A DNA stretch of 46,517 nt from Candidatus Magasanikbacteria bacterium CG_4_10_14_0_2_um_filter_33_14 (lineage in GTDB: Bacteria > Patescibacteriota > Patescibacteriia > Magasanikbacterales > UBA922), in the NCBI GenBank assembly GCA_002793035.1, contig PFPL01000030.1, forward strand, positions 1 through 46,517, given 5' to 3'. The position numbers were made by a program, and so were the translations under genes. Position 1 is the stretch's first letter, and each line of letters begins with the position of its first letter. Positions 40,194-40,408 of the stretch are shown in pieces. Below the pieces are notes generated by a model. It saw only the letters and a program-made list of their open reading frames with translations. It was not told where the DNA came from and did not search any database.

Positions 40194-40228
40194 TTGACAA
40201 TCTAGCTAAAAAATGGTTTATTTATATT
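40194..40228 (+). promoter_or_regulatory. Promoter-like region of ncRNA C
   Basis: Consensus TTGACA (40194-40199) followed by AT-rich -10-like TTTATTTATATT. Confidence 0.5.
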
Positions 40229-40406
40229 GAGGATCTCCCACGGCTTGGGGCACGCATTCTCAAGACGGTATGTCATCATGAAATACCGTCACCTCACATT
40301 TCAGCACCACCTGGGCTGAGCTCCTGTTTTCACAAACAGTTGAGCTCACCCAGGTGCCCCTTCTAACACAAATTTGATAAATTCTCTAATAAAGAGAATT
40401 TTTTAT
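40229..40406 (+). ncRNA. Candidate structured ncRNA C with promoter and terminator
   Basis: Hairpin GACGGTAT/ATACCGTC (40264-40271/40283-40290); 21-bp interrupted hairpin 40308-40356; long-range GGGGCAC/GTGCCCC; terminator ATTCTC-TAATAAA-GAGAAT-T6; no ORF. Confidence 0.65.
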
Positions 40407-40408
40407 TT
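40378..40408 (+). terminator. Intrinsic terminator of ncRNA C
   Basis: AAATTCTC-TAATAAA-GAGAATTTTTTATTTT. Confidence 0.7.

Follow-up and report, generated by a model that had tools for sequence, protein, structure and literature searches.

A predicted stand-alone small RNA gene between a holin gene and cysS in one genus of Candidatus Magasanikbacteria

The window, the whole stretch of 46,517 nucleotides analysed here, is contig C19 of a Candidatus Magasanikbacteria genome (G000; 1.10 Mb, 97% complete). Between a divergently oriented holin gene and cysS it contains a predicted RNA, the core of which has a GC content of 51%, compared to 17% immediately upstream and 33% for the window. An earlier note had described a candidate non-coding RNA at this locus, and all of the elements that it named were found in place. 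The genes and features are as follows.

39710-40051, minus strand: gene for a phage holin 4_2 family protein (Pfam PF04020), the divergent upstream neighbour
40194-40222, plus strand: predicted RNA promoter, TTGACA, a 17-nt spacer ending in TGG (extended -10) and TTTATT (sequence, genome-wide pattern, sister units)
40229-40409, plus strand: predicted small RNA of ~180 nt, its start placed from the -10 and its end from the terminator
40227-40263, plus strand: 5' hairpin TTGAGGATCTCCC...ATTCTCAA (RNAfold)
40247-40253, plus strand: GGGGCAC, a possible alternative partner of 40354-40360 that would compete with the long hairpin (sequence only)
40264-40290, plus strand: hairpin GACGGTAT...ATACCGTC of the 5' domain (RNAfold)
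40308-40356, plus strand: long 21-bp hairpin H2, in which an inner GAG/CTC helix is conserved and two nucleotides (UU) bulge out on the 3' side (fold, covariance model R1, compensatory pairs)
40354-40360, plus strand: GTGCCCC, the possible partner of 40247-40253 (likewise)
40380-40409, plus strand: AT-rich intrinsic terminator AATTCTCT-aataa-AGAGAATT followed by a U-run (sequence, fold)
40407-40435, plus strand: separate cysS promoter, TTTACA-17-TATAAT (11 of 12 consensus matches)
40510-41904, plus strand: cysS, cysteinyl-tRNA synthetase (Pfam PF01406, PF23493), the downstream neighbour

We compared this locus with the cysS loci (L018, L019, and L020) of three sister Candidatus Magasanikbacteria genomes, G001 (MFRB01000012), G002 (PFBU01000060), and G003 (JAQUAW010000002), which are the nearest relatives of the window genome among the genomes compared. 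The holin gene is kept at the same position in all three loci (80-88% identity by tblastn). A further sister genome, G004, is uninformative about the RNA, because its cysS is truncated at a contig end.

The predicted promoter consists of TTGACA at 40194-40199, an extended TG at 40214-40215, and the -10 sequence TTTATT at 40217-40222, and this TTGACA-N14-TG-N-TTTATT arrangement is of the extended -10 type. A search for TTGACAN14TGNYNYANT gives 24 sites in G000 and 14 to 33 sites in each sister genome, compared to 0 sites for the reversed pattern in G000 and 0 or 1 in the sisters. In the window, 2 sites were observed (16196-16224 and 40194-40222) compared to 0.03 expected. The -10 reads TTTATT or TTCATT in five of the six units at this locus, and most genome sites are TATAAT-like. 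As a side observation, the extended -10 class TTGACA-N14-TG-N-TATAAT-like can serve as a fast promoter finder for this group. At the other end of the unit, the terminator hairpin contains two G-C pairs only and is for this reason unlisted by a terminator scan based on G+C content; each sister unit closes at the same place with a different hairpin and a U-run. Together these signals delimit a predicted transcription unit from 40194 to 40409; the earlier note had proposed a complete unit here. By inspection, L018, L019, and L020 likewise have a TTTACA-17-TATAAT promoter for cysS immediately after the terminator, and this arrangement is thus present in four of four genomes including the window.

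The full RNA is predicted by RNAfold to fold with a minimum free energy (MFE) of -65.5 kcal/mol, compared to a shuffled mean of -36.5 (z -8.0), and 0 of 200 shuffles folded as well. The MFE structure is a chain of separate hairpins; the multibranch fold proposed in the earlier note would form only through the alternative GGGGCAC/GTGCCCC pairing. The hairpin at 40227-40263, which RNAfold predicts in the window RNA, is the weakest and admits alternative pairings. In the next hairpin, GACGGTAT occupies 40264-40271 and ATACCGTC occupies 40283-40290; the sister units carry a 5' hairpin that is comparable to it but not the same. The proposed 21-bp hairpin, H2, reaches -31.2 kcal/mol (z -6.6; 0 of 200 shuffles as good) and is the most stable 60-nt forward-strand segment in the whole window. 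The complementarity of GGGGCAC and GTGCCCC is real, but the pairing is unused in both the minimum-energy and centroid folds, and no equivalent was evident by inspection of the sister units; the competition that it would set up is unproven.

No convincing open reading frame was supported within 40229-40409, in agreement with the earlier note. Candidate frames upstream of H2 in the window RNA contain no Cys codons, and no conserved upstream open reading frame (uORF) was found. A scan against Rfam, at gathering and relaxed thresholds, returned no match beyond chance. Specifically, the RNA matched neither 6S RNA (RF00013) nor the small SRP RNA (RF00169). These two results bear on a housekeeping role, in which a lineage-specific 6S-like or SRP-like RNA has escaped Rfam. 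The size and promoter of the unit fit an abundant RNA, and neither 6S RNA nor small SRP RNA is recognised in this genus, while the controls give a signal. Yet the predicted fold, two separate hairpins with single-stranded linkers, is unlike the single 6S rod with its central bubble, no SRP signature motif was observed in the window RNA, and its sequence changes too rapidly for a role of this kind. Moreover, small SRP RNA is above the cut-off in 0 of 39 genomes, mostly of the family and order, whereas the locus has been seen in one genus. We therefore regard a missed 6S or SRP homologue as highly improbable, and give an equally slim chance to the broader idea of an abundant RNA that has taken on a general role, associated with RNA polymerase or with SRP and the ribosome, in a CPR lineage lacking recognisable 6S and small SRP RNA.

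A blastn search of 95 related genomes found no relative of the RNA, only promoter, terminator, or chance matches. One such match, in L007, appears to fall in coding sequence. Plasmid matches were weak (39 nt), a phage match (H3) covered the promoter alone, and a 14-mer core motif gave over 100 matches in viral contigs, which are uninformative because the pattern is too short. By position, in contrast to blastn, related units were found at the same locus in all three sister genomes: two in tandem between the holin gene and cysS in G001, one in G002, and two in tandem in G003. Each sister unit is laid out as promoter, 5' hairpin, A/C-rich linker, long 3' hairpin, tail, and terminator. Outside the promoter, the window unit is 60-65% identical to the sister units in unconstrained global alignments, which is near background, and the orthologous units of G001 and G003 share 91% and 79% identity. 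For each of the six same-locus units, the predicted fold is much more stable than those of shuffled sequences (z -5.6 to -10.6). Small RNA genes in these bacteria can thus outpace detection by blastn and Rfam, and synteny is the better guide. The loops of the two tandem units in G001 are complementary over 11 bp, which exceeds 99.4% of shuffles, and mutual pairing was therefore considered; this loop-loop reading was dropped because the complementarity is absent in G003.

The long hairpin is the part of the unit whose structure is conserved in related genomes. Units U1, U2, U4, and U5 retain the inner GAG(A)CTC helix together with its 3'-side 2-nt bulge, and U6 has a shortened form. A covariance model of the long hairpin, R1, was built from four sister units with the window RNA left out. 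With filters off, R1 scored the window hairpin at 25.2 bits (E 1.5e-4 over 59.6 kb, where E-values are rough because the model derives from four sequences), and its best match in the window was 40296-40366 on the sense strand, followed by a next match of 12.8 bits. The same hairpin scored 8.3 bits in antisense. With default filters, R1 missed the window RNA, which was reported only with filters off, and unit U3 of L018, at 12.1 bits, lay within noise and was not convincingly recognised. In an in-register alignment of the outer helix, 4 of 10 pairs are double-changed in the window RNA, a comparison of one lineage (the window RNA) with three identical outer helices. In this alignment 97% of cells are paired, and 1 of 500 shuffles was as high in compensatory changes; slid controls were 15-42% paired, with at most one compensatory change.

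Strong inverted repeats, copies duplicated in tandem, and high sequence turnover would also be expected of a mobile or repeat-element remnant (a MITE-like hairpin) or of palindromic intergenic DNA that has no RNA function. This interpretation is poorly compatible with a helix preserved through compensatory change, with sense scores above antisense scores, and with the preservation of promoter and terminator. R1 found no other copy, and the core 13-mer GGTCTTGAGACTC occurred in G001-G003 at no site other than this locus, with a lone further match in the family, in G029, at about chance level. We consider a repeat remnant or non-functional palindrome distinctly improbable.

The same searches indicate how far the family extends. 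With filters off, R1 detected no cysS-linked member in 18 cysS loci of other genera of the family and order, and no convincing member across the family and order; weak matches in G036 and G005 corresponded to a 16S rRNA operon leader and an unrelated terminator. In G014, the holin-cysS neighbourhood is kept with no RNA unit between the two genes. From the R1 negatives, the range of the 13-mer, and the empty G014 locus, the RNA unit seems restricted to the genus, with the caveat that R1 may miss divergent copies.

The position of the RNA raises the question, already posed by the earlier note, of whether it is a stand-alone RNA or an attenuator. As an attenuator or riboswitch-type leader, the RNA would form the 5' portion of the cysS mRNA, with uncharged tRNA-Cys, a stalled ribosome, a ligand, or a protein as the signal that selects between termination and read-through. 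In all four genomes in which it is seen, the RNA lies immediately 5' of cysS and in the same orientation, and the GGGGCAC/GTGCCCC pairing could compete with H2. Cysteine-uORF attenuators upstream of cysS are known in Rhodobacterales, where uORFC-8-2, an attenuation leader whose uORF carries tandem Cys codons, likewise places two stems and a terminator ahead of the gene (PMC8632094). In contrast, the window RNA has no tandem-Cys uORF, no Cys-codon uORF was found at a conserved position, and a separate cysS promoter, conserved by inspection, follows the terminator. T-box leaders (RF00230) are also structured RNAs that end in a terminator and precede aminoacyl-tRNA synthetase genes, but no T-box match was obtained in Rfam at gathering or relaxed threshold, and the tandem units here are complete, with separate promoters. 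Two complete promoter-to-terminator units in tandem in two genomes are hard to reconcile with a leader, and the alternative pairing is not visibly conserved. The RNA does always precede cysS within the genus, and it does so in this genus only; constant synteny with cysS alone does not make an RNA a leader. A cysS leader is accordingly disfavoured, as an unlikely though not negligible reading, and of the two forms that the earlier note had left open it is the stand-alone RNA that agrees with the one or two units per genome of the three sister species.

Thus, we conclude that the locus probably encodes a stand-alone, structured small RNA (sRNA) of ~180 nt, which would belong to a fast-evolving family of the holin-cysS intergenic region in one Magasanikbacteria genus. 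This conclusion rests on the terminators, the separate cysS promoter, and the tandem copies. The predicted gene appears to have its own promoter and terminator apart from the promoter of the next gene, as looked for in an sRNA gene. Sequence comparison further supports it through the conserved location, promoter, and architecture, the compensatory change in the long hairpin, and the presence of one or two tandem copies. The RNA would represent a new, unnamed family, ordinary in kind, from a lineage that has received little study. Its transcription would be driven by an extended -10, sigma-70-type promoter of its own and would end at the intrinsic terminator of the unit, and cysS would be transcribed afresh from a separate promoter. 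The transcript may then regulate in trans, either through linker and tail segments that are available for base-pairing or through a protein that reads the bulged long hairpin. No Hfq above the family cut-off was found in five genomes of the genus, and such action would probably proceed without Hfq. Our best guess is a lineage-specific regulatory or protein-binding sRNA.

LhrC of Listeria, OmrA/OmrB, and Qrr are multicopy intergenic trans-acting sRNAs. The window RNA resembles them in its own promoter and intrinsic terminator, in tandem or multiple copies, in hairpins joined by single-stranded segments, and in having no open reading frame. It differs from them in that it has no sequence relation to them, no Hfq is recognised, and it has been seen at one locus in one genus only. 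In a limited literature search, no work on small RNAs of Magasanikbacteria or of other Patescibacteria was found. A delimited RNA gene with a conserved position, promoter, and hairpin offers a handle for testing RNA-based regulation in bacteria that have very small genomes and apparently lack Hfq.

Several minor observations were made in these genomes. RF00169 stayed under its cut-off in all 39 genomes around Magasanikbacteria, and 13 of 14 control genomes gave a signal with it, 9 of them over the cut-off. In all three sister genomes, a divergent, strongly folding stretch with its own TTGAC(A/T)-type promoter separates the holin gene from the RNA units, on the minus strand relative to the latter (L018 641-935, L020 3415-3690, and L019 986-1215). 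This stretch, which is absent from the window, is possibly another small RNA. In L174 (G000, contig C37 near 33300) and L175 (G003, contig C30 near 11800), GC-rich lipoprotein-like open reading frames are preceded by a conserved 5'-leader motif around TGTAACACTACCCATGTACAGGATA, which itself follows a near-identical promoter. Finally, short repeats like GCCTTNTAAGCC and GCCTTTCAAGCC occur directly 5' of the start codons of several genes of these genomes, at 40458-40505 and 45578-45636 in the window, just before cysS in L018-L020, and in L152.
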